A model generated the notes under the pieces. That model made no database searches. It was not told the origin of the DNA and saw only the letters and a list, made by a program, of their open reading frames with translations. Positions 17,495-43,541 of a stretch of 64,000 nt of DNA are shown here, in pieces; position 1 is the stretch's first letter; the number at the start of each line of letters is the position of its first letter. The DNA comes from Cohnella candidum (GTDB lineage Bacteria > Bacillota > Bacilli > Paenibacillales > Paenibacillaceae), in the NCBI RefSeq assembly GCF_003713065.1, contig NZ_CP033433.1, positions 124,001-188,000 of the forward strand, given 5' to 3'. Made by a program: the position numbers and the translations under genes.

Positions 17495-17778
17495 CCCGAT
17501 TTATGTAACTTTCTTGCACAACTCCCCGATTTCCCGCCGCATCCGAGGAATTATGTAACTTTCTTGCACAACTCCCCCGATTTCCCGTCGCTGCCCCGCA
17601 TTTATGTAACTTTCTTGCACAACTCCCCGATTTCCCGCCGCATCCGAGGAATTATGTAACTTTCTTGCACAACTCCCCCGATTTCCCGTCGCTGCCCCGC
17701 ATTTATGTAACTATCTTGCACAACTCCCCCGATTTCTCGCCGCATCCGAGGAGTTACGTAACTTTCTTGCACAACTCC
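17495..17778. repeat. Six-copy tandem array with 50-51 bp period
   Basis: The core GTAACTTTCTTGCACAACTC (one copy has CTATCTTG) begins at about 17505, 17555, 17606, 17656, 17707 and 17758: intervals 50, 51, 50, 51, 51. Between cores the sequence alternates between a 'CGCCGCATCCGAGG' form and a 'CGTCGCTGCCCCGC' form, giving a ~101 bp higher-order repeat. The remaining unique DNA between hrpB and the next gene (17411-17494 and 17779-17890) shows no gene that I can support. No cas genes are present and the inter-core sequences are themselves repeated, so it is not a CRISPR array. Confidence 0.93.
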
Positions 17779-17895
17779 GTCGCGAGACAAAACTGAGCGA
17801 AGGGGATAACGCGTGTAGGCAGATTTAAAAGTTACATGAACCCCTCGTTCCCTCCCAACAACCGGTAAATTCCCCCATTTCCGACTCCGGACTTG

Positions 17896-17904
17896 TGTTA
17901 TGAT
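17896..17904 (+). promoter_or_regulatory. Candidate extended -10 promoter of the second partner-switch operon
   Basis: TGTTATGAT matches TGnTATAAT with one change. It would start RNA near 17911, which rules out the ATG at 17900 as a start and points to 17936 or 17951. Confidence 0.5.
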
Positions 17905-17950
17905 GAAAACGTGGAAAAACCTCGAAAAAGGAAGAATGCGGGGGACCGGA

Positions 17951-18421
17951 ATGGCGGTGCACGGCAACACGGCGGAATCGGAACCGAAGGTGCTTCACCT
18001 GGCTGGAGAGAGTCTCGAGGAGCTTTCGACGCTGCACGATTTTTTCGACAACCTCGCGGGGGAAGCGGGCTGGACCGGCCGGCTCGCCAACGAATTCAAA
18101 CTCTGCTGCGAGGAACTGGTCACCAATACGATCTCTTACGGCTACGCCGAATCTCATGCCGCCAAGGGGATCAAGATTGCCGTTTACGGCCTGCCGCATG
18201 TCGTTACCATGGAGATTACCGACCAAGCGACTCCATTCAATCCTTTCGAGACGGGCGAGCCGGATTTGACGCTGGACGTTGAAAACCGGCCGATCGGCGG
18301 CCTGGGCGTCTATTTCGTCAAGCAAATGATGGACGAGATCTTCTATGAACGAACCGAACCTCCGGGCAACCGGTTGATTTTACGCAAATTTCTCTTGCAG
18401 AACCTGGAGGAAAACCCGTGA
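17951..18421 (+). CDS. RsbW-like anti-sigma/serine kinase ATP-binding protein
   Basis: About 156 residues, HATPase_c_2 (RsbW/SpoIIAB) fold. N-box 'CCEELVTNTISYGY', G1-like 'ITDQATPFNPF' (Ala where kinases usually have Gly of DxG), G2 'GGLGVYFVKQMMDEI'. The start is uncertain: ATG 17951 has GGGGGA 5 nt upstream, ATG 17936 has AAAGGAAG only 1-2 nt away, ATG 17900 lies in the presumed -10. It overlaps the STAS gene by GTGA. In such pairs the kinase phosphorylates the STAS partner on serine and the phosphatase encoded downstream reverses this. No sigma factor is nearby, so its output target is unknown. Confidence 0.85.
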   Translation: MAVHGNTAESEPKVLHLAGESLEELSTLHDFFDNLAGEAGWTGRLANEFKLCCEELVTNTISYGYAESHAAKGIKIAVYGLPHVVTMEITDQATPFNPFETGEPDLTLDVENRPIGGLGVYFVKQMMDEIFYERTEPPGNRLILRKFLLQNLEENP

Positions 18422-18756
18422 ACATTACGACGACCGAGCATAACCATATTACCGTGATGGCGATCGAGGGCCGTTTGGACGGACAGCACGCCCAGTCCGC
18501 GGAGCAGGCGTTCCTGGAACTGGCCGGTGAGGGACGAACCCTCTTCGTGCTGAACTTCGCCAACATGACTTATATCAGCAGCGCCGGCCTTCGGATCGTG
18601 CTCGTCGCCGCCAAGAAAGTGCGTTCCCTGCAAGGCAGGTTGATTTGCGCGGGCATGAACGACCAGGTCCGGGACGTTTTCGAAATGTCCGGCTTCCTGA
18701 GCATTCTCGAAACGGCGGCCACGGCGGAAGAGGCCGTCTCCCTCCTGCAAGCCTAA
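18418..18756 (+). CDS. STAS-domain anti-anti-sigma factor-like protein
   Basis: 112 residues, GTG overlapping the kinase stop, with GGAGGA upstream. The STAS fold is complete: 'ITVMAIEGRLDGQHA', 'LFVLNFANMTYISSAGLRIV', and the closing 'VRDVFEMSGFLSIL'. Ser55 in 'YISSAGL' sits at the position phosphorylated in RsbV and SpoIIAA. It probably switches partners between the RsbW-like kinase and another target, controlled by the PP2C phosphatase that follows after 55 nt. Confidence 0.9.
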   Translation: MNITTTEHNHITVMAIEGRLDGQHAQSAEQAFLELAGEGRTLFVLNFANMTYISSAGLRIVLVAAKKVRSLQGRLICAGMNDQVRDVFEMSGFLSILETAATAEEAVSLLQA

Positions 18757-18811
18757 CGGAGCCTCGGAGGCTCCCTCATCCCAGTCGCAGCCGAAAGGAG
18801 GTCGGGAAACG

Positions 18812-20179
18812 GTGGTATGGAGCGGAATCGCGGCGGCCGCAAGCGGGATAGGCGCTTTCGCGATCGGCGGGGCTTGCGCCTACGCTTATTTGCGAGGACG
18901 AATGCGCAGCGCCAAAACGTTGTTCGAGATCAGCATGTCGCTGAATTCGACGCTGAAGCGCCGCGAGCAATTGGAGATCATCATGAACAGCGCGAAAAAA
19001 GTGCTTCCGGTCGAAGCGGCATCCGTGCTGCTGGCCGATCCCGATACCGGCGAGCTGTTTTTCGAAATGGCGCAGGGAGAGAAATGGGACGCGGTCCGGG
19101 AGATCCGGCTGGCGCCCGGCGAAGGCATCGCGGGCCACGTGGCGGAGACCGGCGCCGGCGTCATCGTGAACGACGCGGCTTCCGACCCGCGCTGGTCGAA
19201 CCGCGTGGCGCAGCGGACCGGGTTCGTGACCCGGAACCTCCTGACGGTTCCCATCGTAAATCAAGGAAGAATAGAAGGGGTCCTGCAGGTCATCAATAAG
19301 ATGGGCAACCGCAAATTCAATTTCCGGGACCGGATGCTGCTCGAACGCGTGGCGAAACCGATGGCCGTCGCCCTCGAGAACGCCCGTCTATACCAGCAGC
19401 TTGAGCAATCGATGGAAGCCTTGCAAAGGACGACGGCGATCAAGGAAAGGCTGGAAAGCGAGCTTCAGATCGCGGGCGGCATCCAGATGAGCTTCCTGCC
19501 GCGCACGATGCCTTCGGCTCAGGAGCCTTACGATATTTGCGCCTTGCTGAAGTCGGCCAAAGAGGTCGGCGGAGACTTCTACAACTTTTTCAAGCTCGAT
19601 GACGACCATCTGTTTTTCACGCTGGGAGACGTCTCCGACAAAGGAATTCCGGCCGCGCTGTTCATGGCGGTAACGCTGACGCTGATCAAGGGGAAGATGA
19701 CGGCTGACCTTACCCCGGGCCAGCTGCTGCGTATGGTGAACGACGAACTGTGCCGCGACAATCCGGTGCTTTTCGCGACGATCGTCTGCGGCGTTTTCCA
19801 TACGAAAACCGGGGAAATCGCGCTCAGCGAAGGAGGCCATTGCACGCCTTACGTCGTCAGGGCGGACGGTGCCGTCGAGCCGGTCAAGCTGCGCAAAAGT
19901 CTGCCGCTCGGCGCAATGGCAGACGTTGAATACCACGACGGGCGCGTCGTTTTGGATCCGGGCGACCGGATCGTCGTCTACACGGACGGGATCACGGAGG
20001 CCGAGAACGCGGCGCTCGAGCAATATTCGGGCGAACGACTCCAAGAGTTTCTGCGGATGACCGCGCCGATGTCCAGCGCCGAGCTGATCGACGCGATGAT
20101 CATGCACGTGTATCTGTTCGCGGACGGGGCGCCACAGTCGGACGACATTGCGGTGTTGAGCCTTCTAAGACGCTCGTAA
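18812..20179 (+). CDS. Membrane-anchored GAF + PP2C (SpoIIE-type) serine phosphatase
   Basis: 455 residues; GTG 9 nt after AAAGGAGGT. One N-terminal membrane segment (about 3-25), a GAF domain (about 45-195, 'LVIN'-type sensor fold with 'VIVNDAASDPRW', 'LLTVPIVNQGRIEGVLQVINK'), a short coiled linker, then a PP2C/SpoIIE domain with metal-binding Asp residues in 'KEVGGDFYNFF' and 'DGITEAENAAL' and 'LGDVSDKGIPAALFM'. This is the RsbU/RsbP-type activator: it would dephosphorylate the STAS protein when the GAF domain senses its signal, whose identity is unknown. Confidence 0.92.
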   Translation: MVWSGIAAAASGIGAFAIGGACAYAYLRGRMRSAKTLFEISMSLNSTLKRREQLEIIMNSAKKVLPVEAASVLLADPDTGELFFEMAQGEKWDAVREIRLAPGEGIAGHVAETGAGVIVNDAASDPRWSNRVAQRTGFVTRNLLTVPIVNQGRIEGVLQVINKMGNRKFNFRDRMLLERVAKPMAVALENARLYQQLEQSMEALQRTTAIKERLESELQIAGGIQMSFLPRTMPSAQEPYDICALLKSAKEVGGDFYNFFKLDDDHLFFTLGDVSDKGIPAALFMAVTLTLIKGKMTADLTPGQLLRMVNDELCRDNPVLFATIVCGVFHTKTGEIALSEGGHCTPYVVRADGAVEPVKLRKSLPLGAMADVEYHDGRVVLDPGDRIVVYTDGITEAENAALEQYSGERLQEFLRMTAPMSSAELIDAMIMHVYLFADGAPQSDDIAVLSLLRRS

Positions 20180-32122: not shown

Positions 32123-32220
32123 GCGTTTGTTGCTGCCCCATGAACGACTGCCGGGCAACGCAGCGTGAACACCAACATCAGGTTACCTACGGCACATTCC
32201 AAGGAGACGATCGAAACCTT

Positions 32221-33381
32221 ATGCGCGTTCTAATCGTGGATGACAATGCCATGAACGTCATGGTGATACAGGAAATGCTCAAACGGGCGGGGTACGCCCA
32301 AATCAGCGCCGCCTATTCGGCGGAGGAAATGTTCGAGACGCTTCGGGCGTCGGGCGGTTCGGATTCCTTGCTCGGCACGAAAATCGATTTGATCCTTCTG
32401 GACATGATGATGCCCGCGATGGATGGGATCGAAGCCTGCCGGCTGCTGCAGGCGGACAGCCGATTCCGCGACATTCCGGTCATCATGGTGACGGCCATCG
32501 GCGACTCCCGCAAGCTGGCAGAGGCGCTGGACGCCGGCGCCATCGATTTCGTGACGAAGCCGATCAACAAAACCGAGCTGCTCGCCCGCATCCGCTCCGC
32601 GCTTCGGCTCAAGAGCGAATTGGACTGGCACAAAGAGCGGGACCGCCGCCTGCGCGAGGAGCTCAATTTGGCCCGCCAGGTTCAGGAAGCCGTCTTGCCG
32701 GTGGCGACGTCGGAGAACGGCGTTCGCGTCCAAGCTTATTTCCGCGCGTCAGAAGAATTGGCGGGAGACTTGTATGCTTGGCATCGCAGAGGGGAACACC
32801 GCTGGGCGCTCGCGGTCATCGACGCGATGGGCCATGGCATCTCTTCTTCGCTGGTCAGCATGTTCGTGGCATCCGTCTTGAAGGAAGCCATGCAAAGCCT
32901 CTGGACTCCCGAACGGGTTTTCCGGGAGGTGAACCGCCGCCTGATGGGCCTTCGTCCCGAAAACGAGCTGGTCCAATATTATTGCACCGGCATTTACGTC
33001 ACGTTGGATTTGGAGAACGGCAAACTCGAATACGCGAACGCGGGCCATCCTCCGGGTTTTCTCTACGCAGACGGCCAGTCCGTCCCGGAACGCTTGAATT
33101 CCACCTCCGCTCCTCTCGGGATGTTCGAAACGCTGGAAGTCGTTTCCCGGAGTTTGACGATATCGCCGGGAGATCGGCTTTTCCTGTATACCGACGGAAT
33201 TTTAGGCCCTTTCGAAGGAGAAGGAGAGGACCAACTCGAGCGGTTTACGGGTTTCTTGCATGAGCAAGGGAGCGACGCGGCCAAGCTGGAGGCCATGATC
33301 GAGAGCACCCCGCTGGACGGACGGTCGGATGACCGCTGCCTGGTCAGGGTCGATATCGGAACGGGAGAGATCGGGGAATGA
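32221..33381 (+). CDS. REC-PP2C serine phosphatase, RsbY-like sigma-B activator
   Basis: 386 residues from ATG 32221 (AAGGAG 14 nt upstream; an upstream in-frame ATG at 32140 lacks a site). Receiver domain residues 1-125 with Asp61 in 'LILLDMMMPAMDG'; linker helix; PP2C/SpoIIE domain from ~145 with 'ELAGDLYAWHRRGEHRWALAVIDAMGHGISSSLV' and 'LFLYTDGI'. RsbY of Bacillus cereus has this build: phosphorylation by the hybrid kinase RsbK turns on the phosphatase, which dephosphorylates RsbV and frees sigma-B. The hybrid kinase gene overlaps its stop (ATGA), and rsbV lies 8.5 kb downstream. Confidence 0.9.
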   Translation: MRVLIVDDNAMNVMVIQEMLKRAGYAQISAAYSAEEMFETLRASGGSDSLLGTKIDLILLDMMMPAMDGIEACRLLQADSRFRDIPVIMVTAIGDSRKLAEALDAGAIDFVTKPINKTELLARIRSALRLKSELDWHKERDRRLREELNLARQVQEAVLPVATSENGVRVQAYFRASEELAGDLYAWHRRGEHRWALAVIDAMGHGISSSLVSMFVASVLKEAMQSLWTPERVFREVNRRLMGLRPENELVQYYCTGIYVTLDLENGKLEYANAGHPPGFLYADGQSVPERLNSTSAPLGMFETLEVVSRSLTISPGDRLFLYTDGILGPFEGEGEDQLERFTGFLHEQGSDAAKLEAMIESTPLDGRSDDRCLVRVDIGTGEIGE

Positions 33382-36300
33382 AAATCAAGACGAAGCTGAT
33401 TGTCGGGTTCGCCGTGATTCTGTTGATTTTGGCCAGCGTCACGGCTTTCGGTTATGTCCGGTTGACCCGAATGGACGACAGCATGAGCTCGTTTTACGAT
33501 AACCGGTTCCAGAAAGTCCAAATCGTCGTGAACGCGCGCGGGGAAGTGAACGCGGCCAATGCCGTCATTACGGGCATTATCATGGGGACCACGGAACCGA
33601 AGAGCGGCGTGAGCGAGATCACCAACCGGCTCACCGCCGCGGCCAAGCAATTTGCGCTGCTGAGCGATTCGCATGCGACGGCGGTCGAAAAGCAAATCAT
33701 CGAGCAAATCAAGAACAACGCCAAAGGCTACGGCGAATTTCTAAATTCCTTCATGCGGCTTGCGCAGGAAGGCAAAGTCGAAGAGGGCAAGCAGCTCTAT
33801 GTGTCCAAAGGAATCCCCTCGACCGTGCTAGTCATTAATTCTTTAAACGGATTGATTGTCTACGAACAGCAGACGCTCGAGGAAGAGATGGCGAACACGA
33901 AAGCGATGTACAAGGACACGGTGCGCATGGTGGCCGCGCTGACCGTGCTCGGCATCCTGCTTGGACTCGCCGTCCTGCTGTGGGTGCTGCCCCAAATCAC
34001 GAAAGGCCTTAATCAACTGGGGCGGATGGCCGACCGGTTCTCGAAAGGCAGGCTGAAAGGCTTCGCCCGCATGAATATCCGCGCGAAGGACGAGCTAGGC
34101 GACCTGGCCCGCGTTTTCCGCCATATCGCCATGGATTTGCTGGCCAAAAACGAGAAGGAGAACGAATATAACGCGATCCTGCAGCGGCAGGCGCGCAAGG
34201 ATGCGCAGATGGCGCGCGTGACCGAGCTCTTGCGCCAAACCTCCGACACGGATGCGGTGGCCCAATCGTTCATCGACGAATTCGCTCCGGTCGTCGGGGC
34301 GGCTTACGGCGCCGTCTATCTGGTCGACCCGGCTTCCAGGGGCAAAATGCTGCAACTGGCGGGATCCTACGCCGGATCCGGCGACGCCGTCGGAACGACG
34401 GCGACCGTTCGACGCGGCGAAGGCTTGGTCGGGCAATGCGCGGCAACGGGCAACGCCATCGTGCTGGACGAGGTGCCTCAGGGATACGTCCGCATCTCCT
34501 CCGGACTCGGTTCGTCGGAACCGCGGCAGCTGGCGCTTCAGCCCGTTAAGTTCGACGAGGAGATCATCGGGGTTATCGAATTGGCGGGCACGGAGGCATT
34601 CCGGCAAGACGATTTGGAACTGCTGGCGGATTTGGCCGTCCAGTTCGGCACGCTCGTCCAGAATATCCGGTCCCGCCAGCGGGTCGAAGAGCTGCTGAGG
34701 GAATCTCAAGCGCAATCCGAAGAGCTGCAGGCGCAATCCGAAGAGCTCATTTCCCAGTCGGAGACGCTGCGCCAAACGAACGACGAGCTGGAGGCGCAGC
34801 GCAACGAGCTCAAGCGTTCGGAAGCCCGCCTCCAGCAGCAGCAGGAAGAGCTCGAGCACGCGAACCAGGAGCTGACCGTCAAGACGCAGGCGCTGGAGGA
34901 GCATATCGATCGCACGGAAACGCAGAACCGCCAAATCGCGAAAGCGAACGCGGACCTGGAGCGTCAGGCGCTGCAGCTCGCCATGACCGGCAAGTACCGT
35001 TCCGAATTCCTCGCCAACATGTCGCATGAGCTGCGGACTCCGCTGAACAGCCTGCTTATCCTCTCCGAATTTTTGGCGGAAAACAAGGAAGGCAACCTGA
35101 ACGAGAAACAGAAGGAGTACATGAAGACGATCCATTTGTCCGGCACGGATCTGCTCAAGATGATCGACGAAATTCTGGATCTGTCCAAGGTGGACGCCGG
35201 CAAAATGGAGATTCACCCCGAATGGACCGTGATCGGCGACATCGCGACCTATTTCGAACACCAATATACCCCCATGGCCCTGCAAAAAGGGCTGACCCTT
35301 TCGGTCGACTCGGAAGAGGGAATCCCGCAGGCGATTTGGACGGACGGCCATCGGCTCAAACAGATTCTCCGAAACCTGTTCTCCAACGCGATCAAATTCA
35401 CGCATGCCGGATCGGTCAGCCTGGCGATCGTGAAGCCGACGGAAGAGGATCTGGCTTCCCTTCCCAAGCGGACGGACGGCGATTACGTCGCCTTCCGGAT
35501 CTCCGACACGGGCATCGGCATCTCCCCGGAAAAGAGCGAAGTGATTTTCGAAGCATTCCGCCAAGCGGACGGAACGACGAGCCGCAAGTACGGGGGAACC
35601 GGCCTGGGGCTCACGATCAGCCGCGAACTGGCGAAGCTGCTGGGCGGCTGGATCCGCTTGGAGACGGAAGCGGGACGGGGCAGCACGTTCACGTTGATTT
35701 TGCCGGAACGCGCGCCGGCGTCCGAGGCGGCGAATGCCGAAGCGCCGCATACCGACGTCTATCCGGAAGTCGCGGCGGCCGGCGTCCTGCCCGGAGAATC
35801 GGACGCATCCCTGTCGCCCGTTGCCGAGCACGGGAATGAGCCCGTTCCGGATGACGACCGCGATTCGCTGGCCGAGGGCGACCGCGTCCTTCTTATCGTG
35901 GAAGATGACATCCATTTCGCCAAAGTGCTGCTCGAAATGGCGAGAACGCGGGGCTTCAAGGGCGTTATCGCCCTGCGCGGCGACGAGGGACTGGAAAGAG
36001 CGCGTACGCTGAAGCCCGACGCCATCCTGCTCGACATCCAGCTTCCGGTAACGGACGGATGGTCGATTCTGCATCAATTGAAATTGGACAAGGAGACGCG
36101 GCATATCCCGGTACAGGTCATTTCCGTCACGGAGCAGAGCTCCCACGGCCTTCGCATGGGCGCTCTGGACCATTTGAAGAAGCCGGCGACCGCGCAGCAG
36201 CTGGAGGAAGTGTTCACCAACATTTCGACGGTGCTCGACCGGAAGCCGAAACGTCTCCTGCTCGTCGAACCGAATCAGGAAGACGTACAGAACCTGACCG

Positions 36301-37052
36301 AGCTGATCGGACACGACGACGTGCTGGTCGAGGCGGTCTCTTCCGCGGAAGGCGCCTGGGAACAGCTGCAGAACCACGCTTATGACTGTCTCGTGCTAAG
36401 CTCCGGCCTGGATGACGGCAGCGGTATCGCATTGATGGAAAAAATCCAGCGGTCGCCGAACCTACATCGCATGCCGGTCATCCTTCACGGCGGAGAAGAA
36501 AGCCAAGAAGAGGCGCTTTGGGAATTCCGGAAGTTCGCGGACAAGATCGTCATGAAAGACGTCAAATCTCCCGAGCGCCTGCTGGAAGAGACGGCGTTGT
36601 TCCTGCACCGGGTGGAAGCGGAGCTGCCGGAGGAGAAGCGCAGAATGCTCCGCAAGCTTCACCGCCGGGAAGCGCCTTTCGAGAACAAAAAGGTGCTGCT
36701 CGTCGATGACGACGTTCGCAACGTATTCGCGCTCTCCAGCGTGCTGGAGCACCGCAAGATGGAAGTCGTGTATGCCGAGAACGGCAAGGACGCGCTGGAG
36801 AAATTGGAGGAACATCCGGACGTCGACATCATCCTGATGGATATCATGATGCCGGAAATGGACGGTTACGAGGCCATGACCCGGATTCGGGAAAACGCCG
36901 CCTGGAAATCCATCCCCATTATCGCCCTTACGGCGAAAGCCATGAGGGACGACAGAAGCAAGTGCATTGAAGCCGGAGCTTCGGATTACATCACGAAGCC
37001 GGTTCATACCGAGCAGCTGCTTTCTCTGATGCGAGTGTGGCTTTATCGATGA
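33378..37052 (+). CDS. Hybrid sensor histidine kinase with three receiver domains, RsbK-like
   Basis: 1224 residues. Order: membrane helix (~7-28), CHASE3-like helical outer domain (~30-175), second helix (~180-203), HAMP, GAF (~285-425), Gln/Glu-rich coiled coil (~435-530), HisKA with His550 in 'FLANMSHELRTPLNSLL', HATPase ('NLFSNAIKFTHAG', 'DTGIGI', 'GTGLGLTI'), then REC1 (Asp886 in 'ILLDIQLPVTDG'), REC2 (Ser1008 replaces the acceptor Asp: 'CLVLSSGLDDG') and REC3 (Asp1155 in 'ILMDIMMPEMDG'). RsbK of B. cereus has CHASE3-GAF-HisKA-REC and feeds RsbY; the neighbours here are the matching phosphatase and CheR methyltransferase. REC2 is a pseudo-receiver. Confidence 0.9.
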   Translation: MKIKTKLIVGFAVILLILASVTAFGYVRLTRMDDSMSSFYDNRFQKVQIVVNARGEVNAANAVITGIIMGTTEPKSGVSEITNRLTAAAKQFALLSDSHATAVEKQIIEQIKNNAKGYGEFLNSFMRLAQEGKVEEGKQLYVSKGIPSTVLVINSLNGLIVYEQQTLEEEMANTKAMYKDTVRMVAALTVLGILLGLAVLLWVLPQITKGLNQLGRMADRFSKGRLKGFARMNIRAKDELGDLARVFRHIAMDLLAKNEKENEYNAILQRQARKDAQMARVTELLRQTSDTDAVAQSFIDEFAPVVGAAYGAVYLVDPASRGKMLQLAGSYAGSGDAVGTTATVRRGEGLVGQCAATGNAIVLDEVPQGYVRISSGLGSSEPRQLALQPVKFDEEIIGVIELAGTEAFRQDDLELLADLAVQFGTLVQNIRSRQRVEELLRESQAQSEELQAQSEELISQSETLRQTNDELEAQRNELKRSEARLQQQQEELEHANQELTVKTQALEEHIDRTETQNRQIAKANADLERQALQLAMTGKYRSEFLANMSHELRTPLNSLLILSEFLAENKEGNLNEKQKEYMKTIHLSGTDLLKMIDEILDLSKVDAGKMEIHPEWTVIGDIATYFEHQYTPMALQKGLTLSVDSEEGIPQAIWTDGHRLKQILRNLFSNAIKFTHAGSVSLAIVKPTEEDLASLPKRTDGDYVAFRISDTGIGISPEKSEVIFEAFRQADGTTSRKYGGTGLGLTISRELAKLLGGWIRLETEAGRGSTFTLILPERAPASEAANAEAPHTDVYPEVAAAGVLPGESDASLSPVAEHGNEPVPDDDRDSLAEGDRVLLIVEDDIHFAKVLLEMARTRGFKGVIALRGDEGLERARTLKPDAILLDIQLPVTDGWSILHQLKLDKETRHIPVQVISVTEQSSHGLRMGALDHLKKPATAQQLEEVFTNISTVLDRKPKRLLLVEPNQEDVQNLTELIGHDDVLVEAVSSAEGAWEQLQNHAYDCLVLSSGLDDGSGIALMEKIQRSPNLHRMPVILHGGEESQEEALWEFRKFADKIVMKDVKSPERLLEETALFLHRVEAELPEEKRRMLRKLHRREAPFENKKVLLVDDDVRNVFALSSVLEHRKMEVVYAENGKDALEKLEEHPDVDIILMDIMMPEMDGYEAMTRIRENAAWKSIPIIALTAKAMRDDRSKCIEAGASDYITKPVHTEQLLSLMRVWLYR

Positions 37053-37888
37053 ATCTTCATAACCCCGTTGACCCGGAGCTCGAAAAGCTGGAAATCAGCC
37101 TGCTCCTGGAAGGTATCTTCCGCCAATATGGATATGATTTCCGAAATTACGCCTATACCTCCGTGAAACGGAGGGTCACGCACCGGTTGCAGCTGGAAGG
37201 CTTCGACACGGCGACGAGGCTGCTGGACGGCGTCCTTCACGATCCGGAGATGTTCCACCGCCTGCTCGGCGATCTGGTCATCCCCGTGACGGAAATGTTC
37301 CGCGATCCCGAAACGTTCCAAGCGTTCCGAGACGGCATCGTGCCGGAGCTTCGCAAGCTGCCGTATGCGAGGATTTGGCATGCCGGCTGCTCGACCGGGG
37401 AGGAGCCCTATTCGATGGCGATCCTGCTCGAAGAAGAGGGCTTGCTCGACAAAACCCGGATTTACGGAACGGATATCAGCGAGGGCGCGCTGGAGCAGGC
37501 CAAGGACGGTGTCATGCCCCTCGAGAGAATGCAGCTGTATACGCAGAATTACCAAGCTTCGGGCGGCAAGCGGGCGTTCTCCGAATATTACGTTTCGGAC
37601 CACGGCTTGGTCCTGATGAAGCCTTTTCTGCGCAAAAATATCGTGTTCGCCCGGCATAATCTGGTGACCGACCGTTCGTTTAACGAATTCCAAGTCATCT
37701 TCTGCCGGAACGTCATGATCTACTTCGATACGGTCCTGCGCGAGCACGTGCATCGACTGTTCTATGAGAGTCTGGCCGTCGGCGGATTTCTCGTGCTGGG
37801 CAACAAAGAATCCATTTCGTTCACGCCGATGGCCGAACGCTACGAAGTGTTTGACGACGCAAACAGGATTTATCGCAAAGTCGTGTGA
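37049..37888 (+). CDS. CheR-type methyltransferase, RsbM-like
   Basis: 279 residues; ATG overlaps the kinase stop (ATGA). The CheR N-terminal helical domain ('LEGIFRQYGYDFRNYAYTSVKRRVTHRL') is followed by a SAM-binding domain: motif I 'IWHAGCSTGEEPYSMAILLEE', 'RIYGTDISEGALEQAK', and the family-specific 'VIFCRNVMIYFD'. No chemotaxis receptor is nearby. In B. cereus RsbM, a CheR homologue, methylates the RsbK kinase and damps it, so the kinase encoded upstream is the likely substrate here. Confidence 0.9.
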   Translation: MNLHNPVDPELEKLEISLLLEGIFRQYGYDFRNYAYTSVKRRVTHRLQLEGFDTATRLLDGVLHDPEMFHRLLGDLVIPVTEMFRDPETFQAFRDGIVPELRKLPYARIWHAGCSTGEEPYSMAILLEEEGLLDKTRIYGTDISEGALEQAKDGVMPLERMQLYTQNYQASGGKRAFSEYYVSDHGLVLMKPFLRKNIVFARHNLVTDRSFNEFQVIFCRNVMIYFDTVLREHVHRLFYESLAVGGFLVLGNKESISFTPMAERYEVFDDANRIYRKVV

Positions 37889-37912
37889 CATGTGAGGAGA
37901 GGAGGAGCCTAG

Positions 37913-39952
37913 TTGTCCGACGTTCAACCGGTGCCGCTGCTTTTGGTCGACGACCACGTCGAGAATCTGTTGGCGCTGGAAGCCGTATTGTCCGCGGAAA
38001 ATTATCGGCTCGTCCGCGCTGAATCCGGCGAGGAGGCCTTGCGCCACGTGTTGCGCGAAGAATTCGCCGTTATCGTGATGGACGTGCAGATGCCGGGGAT
38101 GGACGGCTTCGAAACGGCGAGGCTGCTCAAGTCCAGGGAGAAAACGAAGGACGTGCCCATTCTGTTCATTTCCGCGACCAACCGGGAAGCCGTGGACCAA
38201 TTCCAGGGTTATTCGGCCGGGGCTGTGGATTACCTGGTCAAACCGATCGTTCCCCCGATTTTCAAAGCCAAAATCGCCGCGTTCGTGCGGATGTACCTGA
38301 ATAACCGGGAGCTGGAGGAAAGGCAGAAGCAGCTCGAACAGCAGAAGGCGGAGCTGGAGTCCGTCAACCGCGAGCTTCTCCGGGTGACCTATGGCCTGAC
38401 GACCGCGGAAGCGAAGTCCCGGATGATTTTCGATACGTCCATTGACGGCATGTTCATTTTCGACGCGACGGGGAACATTTTGTCCGTGAATCCGGCGATG
38501 GAGCGGCTGTTCGGCTACAAAGCGGGCGAGCTGGTCGGTTACCCGGCCGAGAAAATCCTCCCCGCGATCGAGGAAATGCGGGGCCGACGCTTCGAGGGGC
38601 GCGGAGAAGCTTTCGAAGTCCCGCCCTTCGTGACCGGCGTGGTGTGCGAAATGACCGCTTGCAAGAAAGGCAACGCCTTGTTCGAGGCCGAAATTCAGCT
38701 GGGGGAGTCGGTCATCGACGAACAGCGGTTATACGCCTGCACGGTGCGGGACATCACGGACCGCAAAGGGACGATGCGGCTGCTGACGGAAGCCAAAAAC
38801 GCGGCCGAAATCGCTTCGCGGGCGAAAAGCGAATTTTTGGCGGTCATGAGCCACGAGATCCGGACCCCGATGAACGGGCTGATCGGGATGAGCGACCTGA
38901 TGTACGAGACGGCCATGTCGAGGGAGCAGGAAGCCTACGCCCACGCGATTCGTGATAATGCGAACCGTTTGCTCTCGATCATGAACGATATCCTCGATTT
39001 CACCAGCATGGAATCCGGCAAAATCGAGCTCGACGAGCAGCCGTTTTCGCTGCGGGAGTGCTTGGCCGACGTCATCGGAAAATTCCGCGAGGAAGCGGAA
39101 CGCAAAGATTTGGAGCTGGTGTGGGAGCTTGAGGAAGACGTGCCGGAATACGTGGTGGGGGATCCGCACCGATACCGGCAGATTTTGCACCATTTGATCA
39201 ACAACGCCGTGAAATTCACCGGGTCCGGCGGGGTGTACGTGCTGGTGAGAACGAGGGAAGAGGCGCCGTCGGCACCCGGGGATCCGCCGAAAATCCGCCT
39301 GGAGACGACCGTGCAGGATACGGGAGAGGCCATTCCGGAGGAAAAGAGACACCGGCTGTTCATGCCCTTCTCGCAGATGGATTCTTCCATGACGCGCAAG
39401 CACGGCGGAACGGGGCTGGGGCTCGCCGTCTGCCAGACGCTGGCCAAGGCGATGGGCGGGGGCGTGCGCCTCGCCTCGCGGGACCGCTCGGGCAACCGGT
39501 TCGTCTGCCGGATCAACGTCGCGCCGTTCGAGTGGCCGGCCGAGTTTCCCCGCTTGTCGGCCGCCGCCGGGGCGCTTCGCAGTCAACCCGTTTTGATCGT
39601 CGCGCGCGACGCGTTCCGCAGAAGGCTGCTTTCCGCGCTCTCGCGGAAGCTGGGCTTGGCTCCGCTTGGCGCGACGTGCCCGGCGGCTGCTTTGTCGTGG
39701 CCGAGCCGCAATAAAGCGTTGCTCGCGATCGTGGACGAATACGCCGACGACGAACGCGAGATCATCCGCCATTGGGGGGAGGAAGGCGTCCGGACGCTGT
39801 GTATCCGCGCGTCCGGCGTCTCCGGTCCTTTGCCCGAACCGATGCCCGGATGCGAAATCGTCGAAGGCCCCGTGTCCCTGTCCGGCCTGAAGTCCTTTTT
39901 CGGAGAAACGCTCATGGAGAACAGGGTTCAAAGCCGCTCCCGCCGGGTATAG
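37913..39952 (+). CDS. REC-PAS hybrid histidine kinase with degenerate C-terminal receiver
   Basis: 679 residues; TTG start after a strong GAGGAGAGGAGG. Receiver domain (1-125) with Asp57 in 'VIVMDVQMPGMDG', coiled linker, PAS domain (~165-290, 'SIDGMFIFDATGNILSVNPAMERLFGY'), HisKA with His314 in 'FLAVMSHEIRTPMNGL', HATPase ('HLINNAVKFTG', 'GGTGLGLAVC'), then ~120 residues that begin like a receiver ('QPVLIVARDAFRRRLLSALSRKL') but lack the acidic pair and acceptor Asp. Soluble: no membrane segment. It is not part of the standard B. cereus RsbY-K-M set; position suggests it joins or tunes that phosphorelay. Its 3' end carries a sigma-B-type promoter for the next gene. Confidence 0.88.
   Translation: MSDVQPVPLLLVDDHVENLLALEAVLSAENYRLVRAESGEEALRHVLREEFAVIVMDVQMPGMDGFETARLLKSREKTKDVPILFISATNREAVDQFQGYSAGAVDYLVKPIVPPIFKAKIAAFVRMYLNNRELEERQKQLEQQKAELESVNRELLRVTYGLTTAEAKSRMIFDTSIDGMFIFDATGNILSVNPAMERLFGYKAGELVGYPAEKILPAIEEMRGRRFEGRGEAFEVPPFVTGVVCEMTACKKGNALFEAEIQLGESVIDEQRLYACTVRDITDRKGTMRLLTEAKNAAEIASRAKSEFLAVMSHEIRTPMNGLIGMSDLMYETAMSREQEAYAHAIRDNANRLLSIMNDILDFTSMESGKIELDEQPFSLRECLADVIGKFREEAERKDLELVWELEEDVPEYVVGDPHRYRQILHHLINNAVKFTGSGGVYVLVRTREEAPSAPGDPPKIRLETTVQDTGEAIPEEKRHRLFMPFSQMDSSMTRKHGGTGLGLAVCQTLAKAMGGGVRLASRDRSGNRFVCRINVAPFEWPAEFPRLSAAAGALRSQPVLIVARDAFRRRLLSALSRKLGLAPLGATCPAAALSWPSRNKALLAIVDEYADDEREIIRHWGEEGVRTLCIRASGVSGPLPEPMPGCEIVEGPVSLSGLKSFFGETLMENRVQSRSRRV
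39926..39950 (+). promoter_or_regulatory. Sigma-B-type promoter inside the 3' end of the kinase gene
   Basis: GTTCAA (39926-39931), 13-nt spacer, GGGTAT (39945-39950); the -10 is the exact consensus. It lies 26 nt before the ATG of the YflT-like gene at 39976. Confidence 0.7.
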
Positions 39953-41832: not shown

Positions 41833-41858
41833 GTTTCGTTCCCGGAAGTTTCGGGTTA
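41833..41858 (+). promoter_or_regulatory. Sigma-B-type promoter of the rsbV-rsbW-sigB operon
   Basis: GTTTCG (41833-41838), 14-nt spacer, GGGTTA (41853-41858), 61 nt before rsbV. Autoregulation of this operon by sigma-B is established in Bacillus. Confidence 0.75.
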
Positions 41859-41919: not shown

Positions 41920-42240
41920 ATGCTGCCGAACAAATTTACGCTCCGGACCGAAAATCGGGAAGGACGCACGATCGTTTATGTCGGGGGTGAACTCGATCTT
42001 GAGGTAGCCTCCCAAATGAGGGCGGCGATGGAACCTCTGATGGAGCTTTCCGACCGCCGGCTCACCTTGAATTTGCGCGACCTCAAATATATTGACAGCA
42101 CCGGCATCGGGATTTTGATTTCCGTCCTGAAGGCCCGGCATTCCCGTAACGCGCCGTTTGACGTGGAGCATGTTCCAGGACATATCCGCAAGCTGTTCGA
42201 TATGACCGGGATCACTCCGTTCCTGGCTGCCGCCGAATAA
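41920..42240 (+). CDS. rsbV: Anti-anti-sigma-B factor RsbV
   Basis: 106 residues, usual RsbV length; ATG after AAAGGAG. STAS fold with 'GRTIVYVGGELDLEVASQMRAAM', 'LTLNLRDLKYIDSTGIGILISVLKAR' and 'IRKLFDMTGITPFL'. Ser60 in 'YIDSTG' is the residue phosphorylated by RsbW; only the unphosphorylated form binds RsbW and frees sigma-B. The likely phosphatase is the RsbY-like protein at 32221. First gene of the sigB operon, with its own sigma-B promoter. Confidence 0.95.
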   Translation: MLPNKFTLRTENREGRTIVYVGGELDLEVASQMRAAMEPLMELSDRRLTLNLRDLKYIDSTGIGILISVLKARHSRNAPFDVEHVPGHIRKLFDMTGITPFLAAAE

Positions 42241-42273: not shown

Positions 42274-42714
42274 ATGGCCAAAGACAGACAAGTGACGTTG
42301 TCGGTTCCCGCCCAAGCGGAATTCGTCGATTTGATCCGTTTGACGCTGTACGGAATCGCAAGCAAAATGAAATTCTCTTTCGAAGAGATTGAAGATATGA
42401 AGGTCGCCGTGTCCGAGGCCGTCAACAACGCCGTTTTGCATGCCTACGGCGGAGAAGACGGGGTCATCGACGTGACCTTTGCCGTCACCTAGGAGGAGCT
42501 GGCGATCAACGTGCGAGACCACGGTGTGAGCTTCACTCCCGCGGATAACCAAGAATCGGCGTCCCTTCATGGCAAGTCGATTGACGAAATCCAGTCGGGC
42601 GGATTGGGACTGTATTTAATGCAAGCATTGATGGACCACGTCGAAGTGAAGCAAGTCGGCGGGACATCGGTGACTCTGGTCAAGAAACGCGCGCGCTCGG
42701 AAGAGACGGCGTGA
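42274..42714 (+). pseudogene. rsbW: rsbW (anti-sigma-B serine kinase) interrupted by in-frame TAG; possibly a split gene
   Basis: The reading frame 42274-42714 covers a complete RsbW (146 codons) except for TAG at 42490-42492. The first piece (72 residues) carries 'VPAQAEFVDLIRLTLYGIASKM' and the N-box 'MKVAVSEAVNNAVLHAYGGE'. After the TAG the frame continues 'EELAINVRDHGVSFTP' (G1 box) and 'SGGLGLYLMQALMDHVEV' (G2 box). The TAG forms part of TAGGAGGAG, a strong ribosome site, with GTG at 42511 (12 nt on) opening a 67-residue second piece (42511-42714). All other kinase residues are intact and there is no frameshift. It may be a nonsense mutation, a read error, or a kinase made as two pieces. 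If inactive, sigma-B would lack its anti-sigma factor. Confidence 0.85.
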
Positions 42715-43496
42715 CGATGTCCTTACCACCCGCGCGTTTGCCCGACGACGCGATTTCCATGCTGATCGAATATCAAAGGACGATGTCCAACGAATTGGCG
42801 GAAGAGCTGATCAGGCACTATGAACCGATGGTCCGGATGGCCGCGAACAAGATGTCGCGCAACCGGCCCGATCTGTTCGACGATCTTTATCAAGTAGGCC
42901 AAATGTCGTTGTTCCGTCTGCTGAAGCAGTTCGATCCCGAAATGGGAATGCCGTTCGAACCTTATGCGATGAAAAGCATCATCGGACACATGAAGAACTA
43001 CTTGCGGGACAAGTCCTGGTACGTGCAGGTGCCCCGCAGAATCAAGGAAAAAGGCTTGGTCGTACAACAAGCGATCGACGAATTGACCGTTTCCCTCGAA
43101 CGATCCCCGAACGTGGAAGAAATCGCCGCGCACCTGGGGCTGGAGCTGGAGGAAACCCTCGAAATTCTGGCCGGGCGCGACTTGTACCATTACGTCTCCC
43201 TTGATACTCCGATCTCGGACGAGGAGAACACGGCGGTGCTCGGCGAGCTGATCGGCTCCCCTACGGACGATTACGCAGCGCTCGAAAGGAAGCTGGACCT
43301 GCAGGAAGCCATGTCGGAGCTGAAAGCGGAAGAGAGGGAAGTGCTTCTGCTCGTCTTCGAAGGCGGATTGTCGCAGCGAACGATCGCCGAACGGCTCGGC
43401 GTTTCCCAGATGAGCGTCTCCCGGATCCAGAAACGGGCGATCGACAAGCTGAAACAGCTGCTCACCGAGAAAGACGGGGAATACGACGCCTTATAA
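42711..43496 (+). CDS. sigB: RNA polymerase sigma factor SigB
   Basis: 261 residues; GTG overlaps the rsbW stop (GTGA), or ATG 42717. Region 2 'DLYQVGQMSLFRLLKQFDPEMGMPFEPYAMKSIIGHMKNYLRDKSWYVQVPRRIKEK' and region 4 'EREVLLLVFEGGLSQRTIAERLGVSQMSVSRIQKRAIDKL' are complete and of the sigma-B/F/G group. Position after rsbV and rsbW identifies it as SigB. It directs the general stress response; several genes around it carry promoters of matching type. A terminator follows. Confidence 0.95.
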   Translation: MTMSLPPARLPDDAISMLIEYQRTMSNELAEELIRHYEPMVRMAANKMSRNRPDLFDDLYQVGQMSLFRLLKQFDPEMGMPFEPYAMKSIIGHMKNYLRDKSWYVQVPRRIKEKGLVVQQAIDELTVSLERSPNVEEIAAHLGLELEETLEILAGRDLYHYVSLDTPISDEENTAVLGELIGSPTDDYAALERKLDLQEAMSELKAEEREVLLLVFEGGLSQRTIAERLGVSQMSVSRIQKRAIDKLKQLLTEKDGEYDAL

Positions 43497-43511: not shown

Positions 43512-43541
43512 AACCTCCGCTTTCGCGCGGAGGTTTTTTCT
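43512..43541 (+). terminator. Terminator of the sigB operon
   Basis: AACCTCCGC, loop TTTCGC, GCGGAGGTT, then TTTTTT. Confidence 0.9.

Follow-up and report, generated by a model that had tools for sequence, protein, structure and literature searches.

RsbW is a serine kinase that phosphorylates RsbV and an anti-sigma factor that inhibits SigB by binding it. Its loss has been described in several bacteria, with differing outcomes. In Listeria monocytogenes, one study (PMC13068326) reports that two rsbW nonsense mutants, with stops at codons 23 and 37, formed small colonies and were among the strains with raised SigB activity when tested; the mutants arose under laboratory acid selection, and one is listed with the slower growers at 30 °C. 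Passages of a second source (PMC10210984) describe RsbW loss as deleterious in Bacillus, report a S. aureus rsbW mutant that resembled a SigB mutant owing to coupled translation, and attribute less SigB and no growth defect to C. difficile without RsbW. The same inhibitor is lost in all three, with an outcome that hinges on autoregulation and on the coupling of sigB to rsbW. In B. subtilis, according to PMC8073009, interlocked feedbacks make SigB respond with extreme sensitivity to how RsbV and RsbW are balanced. Our search of the open literature found no publication joining Cohnella, sigB and rsbW, and the titles and abstract openings that it returned named no split RsbW.

Here we describe an rsbV-rsbW-sigB operon of Cohnella candidum in which rsbW is interrupted by an in-frame amber codon. 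All positions refer to the window, the 64,000-nucleotide stretch of DNA that was analyzed, unless another locus is named. As in the L. monocytogenes mutants (PMC13068326), the stop lies within rsbW and the rest of the sigB operon is kept. However, the Cohnella allele is known from a genome sequence alone, has its stop at codon 73, and comes from a different family. Nonsense alleles of rsbW are thus already published in Listeria, and Cohnella is a further case.

Results

The genome is a single contig of 5,289,049 bases and is 99.93% complete. The best named matches of the window's SigB all belong to Cohnella species, with C. pontilimi at the top (95% identity). Two genes of the operon are intact by reading frame and by domain and family profiles, both on the + strand: rsbV (41920–42240, 106 aa), which encodes the STAS-domain anti-sigma factor antagonist, and sigB (42711–43496, 261 aa). 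Between them lies the rsbW reading frame (42274–42714, + strand), which has one interruption and was delimited with open reading frames, Pfam and NCBIfam models, and a whole-genome profile search. Upstream of rsbV is a putative SigB-type promoter motif (GTTTCG, 14 nt, GGGTT; 41833–41857, + strand), named by its resemblance to the SigB consensus. A terminator-like hairpin follows sigB on its 3′ side (43512–43535, + strand), from a pattern match that found 3 such hairpins vs. 2.1 expected in shuffles. The order rsbV-rsbW-sigB was present in 88 of 88 loci, all of which had been gathered via sigB or the operon itself. Neither RsbV (24 conserved positions) nor SigB (82 conserved positions) shows a single deviation, which rules out compensating damage in either protein at those positions. 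A stop that our script counted in one other sigB gene (L019) sits at the C-terminal end and is not internal.

As a first-pass annotation of the window had described, a single RsbW frame starts at ATG 42274 and is cut by one TAG (42490–42492, + strand) at codon 73. The frame past the TAG stays open until TGA 42712–42714, with neither a frameshift nor other decay. The first piece (42274–42492, + strand) comprises 72 codons and the stop and is matched by Pfam and NCBIfam models. GTG 42511 opens a possible restart frame of 67 codons (42511–42714, + strand; putative), which Pfam identifies as the second half of RsbW and which the GTG of sigB at 42711 overlaps by GTGA. The motifs of the protein are named N-box, G1, and G2. 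Pfam HATPase_c_2 matches both pieces, over profile positions 1–62 and 72–127 of 127. The NCBIfam RsbW models also match both, each under the whole-protein cut-off (for NF003144, 95.3 and 53.4 bits vs. a cut-off of 145). In a whole-genome search for the family, the match at rsbW passes through exactly one TAG, and owing to this codon no single open frame crosses the whole HATPase_c_2 domain. Because the pieces span one family end to end and lie between rsbV and sigB, where rsbW belongs, the interruption is more than a chance arrangement.

To place the codon among relatives, we collected 88 loci (59 from named genomes, plus 29 from further genomes of the same genus). Ten of these were duplicates by rsbW DNA, leaving 78 distinct rsbW genes, of which 29 belong to Cohnella and 49 to Paenibacillus or its kin. 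Every one of the 78 has an open frame, of 146–160 codons, with no stop at codon 73. The first-pass annotation had held that intact relatives, with the TAG in this strain alone, would mark a private nonsense mutation and not a split gene, and this is the pattern that emerged: only this genome is cut, and it shows no further decay. We found no second isolate of the species, so a strain-private TAG and a species-fixed one are indistinguishable here. Among 36 other genomes of the genus, 29 were read at codon 73 and four gave no rsbW DNA match (G001, G009, G018, and G029); the other three match but were unread there, since the contig of G024 ends before the codon and the loci of G003 and G014 were not fetched. 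The residues at codon 73 across the 29 are E in 13, D in 7, A in 5, V in 2, K in 1, and G in 1.

A protein search with the read-through frame returned 581 hits, and the closest full-length RsbW relatives among the matches listed are 92, 90, and 88% identical. In the best 120 of the 581, position 73 is occupied in 120 of 120, by 13 kinds of residue; because predicted proteins cannot reveal stops, the former count shows only that full-length genes exist and are common. Such tolerance at position 73 would suit a reading in which read-through of the TAG yields enough useful full-length RsbW. We consider this the least probable of the explanations weighed here, given that no CTA anticodon was found among 58 tRNAs (detected by an Rfam model and typed with ARAGORN, such that a tRNA outside the Rfam model would be missed) and that the control domains described below hold no in-frame stops. 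Amber suppression or recoding was rejected on the same two grounds.

The whole-genome HATPase_c_2 search revealed no second close RsbW. Its only other strong matches are SpoIIAB, intact beside spoIIAA and sigF in the spoIIA operon, and a divergent HATPase_c_2 protein at 17900–18421, which reaches 29.7 bits on the RsbW model vs. the cut-off of 145. Judged by sequence, it is likely that neither stands in for RsbW.

Conserved residues were retained on both sides of the stop. The interrupted RsbW has 0 deviations at 57 positions that are at least 97% conserved in the genus (29 on the N-terminal side of the stop and 28 on the C-terminal side), and the comparison with the best 120 of 581 proteins likewise revealed no deviation at 33 invariant positions or at 51 that are at least 95% conserved. 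Because the remaining frame keeps every residue conserved among its kin, the lesion looks recent, an age estimated from sequence conservation. In comparison with C. pontilimi, the part of the gene upstream of the stop has a dN of 0.063 and the part downstream 0.096; the same comparison gave 0.096 and 0.19 for the intact relatives L002 and L006. Dating by dN/dS was abandoned, as dS to the nearest relative (1.5 to 2.2) is saturated and provides no date. Relative-rate comparisons involved few counts: with relative P0001 and outgroup P0004, the window gene had 1 vs. 4 changes in its second half and 3 vs. 1 in its first, and with P0003 and outgroup P0005 it had 7 vs. 1 in the first half.

Since a single base is involved and a second isolate was not found, we also considered that the TAG is an assembly base error or is peculiar to the sequenced clone, with rsbW intact in the species. 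One gene elsewhere in the assembly does look faulty: two overlapping ABC_tran matches (profile 1–111 and 111–137) in different frames point to a likely frameshifted ABC gene on contig 1 at 4297134–4297597, outside the window. However, control domain matches from the same assembly contained no in-frame stop in 256 cases (none in 123 ABC_tran matches, from 150 candidates scored out of 196, and none in 133 Response_reg matches), and the one HATPase_c_2 match of 40 that does contain a stop is rsbW itself. The zero among controls argues against a generally faulty assembly and makes a base error at the TAG less likely; we regard this explanation as improbable.

The stop and codons 74–75 together form a Shine-Dalgarno-like run, TAGGAGGAG (42490–42498, + strand), and the TAG had been proposed to double as a ribosome-binding site for the second piece. 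The run is present as described, but comparison across the genus weakens that role. Its GAG GAG is an ordinary pair of acidic codons, and open frames in 23 of the 29 distinct genus relatives carry an acidic pair at 74–75, exactly GAGGAG in 2 of the 29. The run also lies 12–14 nt from GTG 42511, a gap that exceeds the usual Shine-Dalgarno spacing. Ten of 29 genus relatives in any case encode the valine at the restart site with GTG.

An AlphaFold model of P0001, the 92% identical relative (mean pLDDT 82.5, pTM 0.78, 41 sequences), has strands at residues 64–71 and 75–82, and the stop would fall in the turn between them. Restarting at residue 80 would lose residues 74–79 and keep three of the eight residues of the second strand. 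P0001 aligns without gaps at the stop site to B. subtilis RsbW (6m36). With P0001 as the query, this structure and those of SpoIIAB (1l0o, 1til, and 1th8) belong to the same family by sequence; all four are whole proteins, whereas the Cohnella frame is cut between two strands. Searches with the separate pieces yielded ten short database homologues. By eye, none of them stops at residue 72 or begins at residue 80, although P0126 and P0130 end close by.

These observations bear on the proposal that the strain has a natural split kinase, with a restart at GTG 42511 and pieces of 72 and 67 residues that assemble into a working RsbW. The predicted position of the stop in a turn, the in-frame GTG only 18 nt downstream, and the undamaged conserved positions in both pieces are what such a protein might have, but the same split is retained in 0 of 78 distinct relatives. 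Because the Shine-Dalgarno-like run is made of the stop and ordinary codons, because the GTG is distant from it, and because the restart would cost the protein most of a core strand (75–79 of 75–82 in the model), a two-piece working kinase is possible but unlikely, and the first-pass suggestion of one is not supported. In its most specific form, a fresh split whose two parts join at the opened beta hairpin to form a weaker RsbW, with translation of the second part keeping SigB synthesis coupled, we would be very surprised to see it confirmed.

Discussion

Of the options raised by the first-pass annotation, a nonsense allele gained the most, since none of the 78 distinct relatives has a stop at this codon. 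Its option of a deregulated SigB is likely too, although the overlap of rsbW with sigB leaves either direction conceivable. Translation is predicted to terminate at amber codon 73, midway through the ATP-binding domain, such that RsbW is likely lost and SigB left without its inhibitor. We assign a probability of roughly one half to this reading of a stop that occurs in no relative read. Comparable broken brakes have been published in Listeria, and we therefore think that the Cohnella allele is likely a recent mutation of an ordinary sort rather than a novel type of two-piece protein.

What the loss would do to SigB output depends in part on the operon's own promoter. Of 29 distinct genus loci, 27 have a SigB-type motif in the 400 nt preceding rsbV (the exceptions being L006 and L084); with the distance limited to about 115 nt, 58 of 88 loci have one, vs. 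2.6% of base shuffles. Given the motif upstream of rsbV, autoregulation of the sigB operon is likely, as judged from sequence. Free SigB would then be likely to transcribe its own operon and keep the general stress response switched on, although the lack of the motif in L006, a near relative, counts against this. The motif also sets this Cohnella apart from C. difficile, whose operon, according to PMC10210984, has no SigB promoter.

The alternative is that the allele is polar: ribosomes terminating at codon 73 would not arrive at the rsbW/sigB overlap, leaving little SigB and an almost SigB-negative strain. All 27 distinct genus contexts have the stop-start overlap, as do 40 of 44 others, and sigB in the window starts with GTG, vs. 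ATG in 25 of 27 genus contexts. The S. aureus rsbW mutant, with its SigB-mutant phenotype through coupled translation (PMC10210984), points the same way. By contrast, SigB activity was raised in the Listeria rsbW nonsense mutants (PMC13068326), a further ATG is available at 42717, and any restart at GTG 42511 would finish at the same overlap. Given the 4-nt overlap between rsbW and sigB, lowered production of SigB has to be taken seriously as a competing explanation, if a tentative one; in our analysis, raised output is the more likely direction after RsbW loss. The near relative L006 also has a GTG sigB start alongside an intact rsbW, indicating that GTG need not be compensation.

If the base is real, and RsbW is lost as we predict, this would be a natural genome whose SigB pathway is seemingly intact except for its central inhibitor. 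Such a genome would test whether autoregulated SigB is tolerable in the family, and in which direction the rsbW-sigB coupling pushes SigB output. Claims about stress responses drawn from this Cohnella genome hinge on one base that needs confirmation.

Close upstream of the operon is a likely SigB input system (32140–39952), consisting of a REC-SpoIIE phosphatase (32140–33381), a hybrid sensor kinase with GAF and three REC domains (33378–37052), a CheR-like open reading frame named by eye (37037–37888), and a second REC-PAS kinase (37913–39952). The set resembles RsbY-RsbK-RsbM of Bacillus cereus. With RsbW gone, this input system would lack a switch to operate.

The window holds a second partner-switching set at 17900–20179, composed of the divergent HATPase_c_2 protein (by score not RsbW), a STAS protein, and a GAF-SpoIIE phosphatase. 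Just before its first gene (17602–17970), and at 774–1476 of locus L189 near spoIIA, translations of likely non-coding open reading frames contain short repeats of ~14–18 residues, which hint at tandem DNA repeats in both places.
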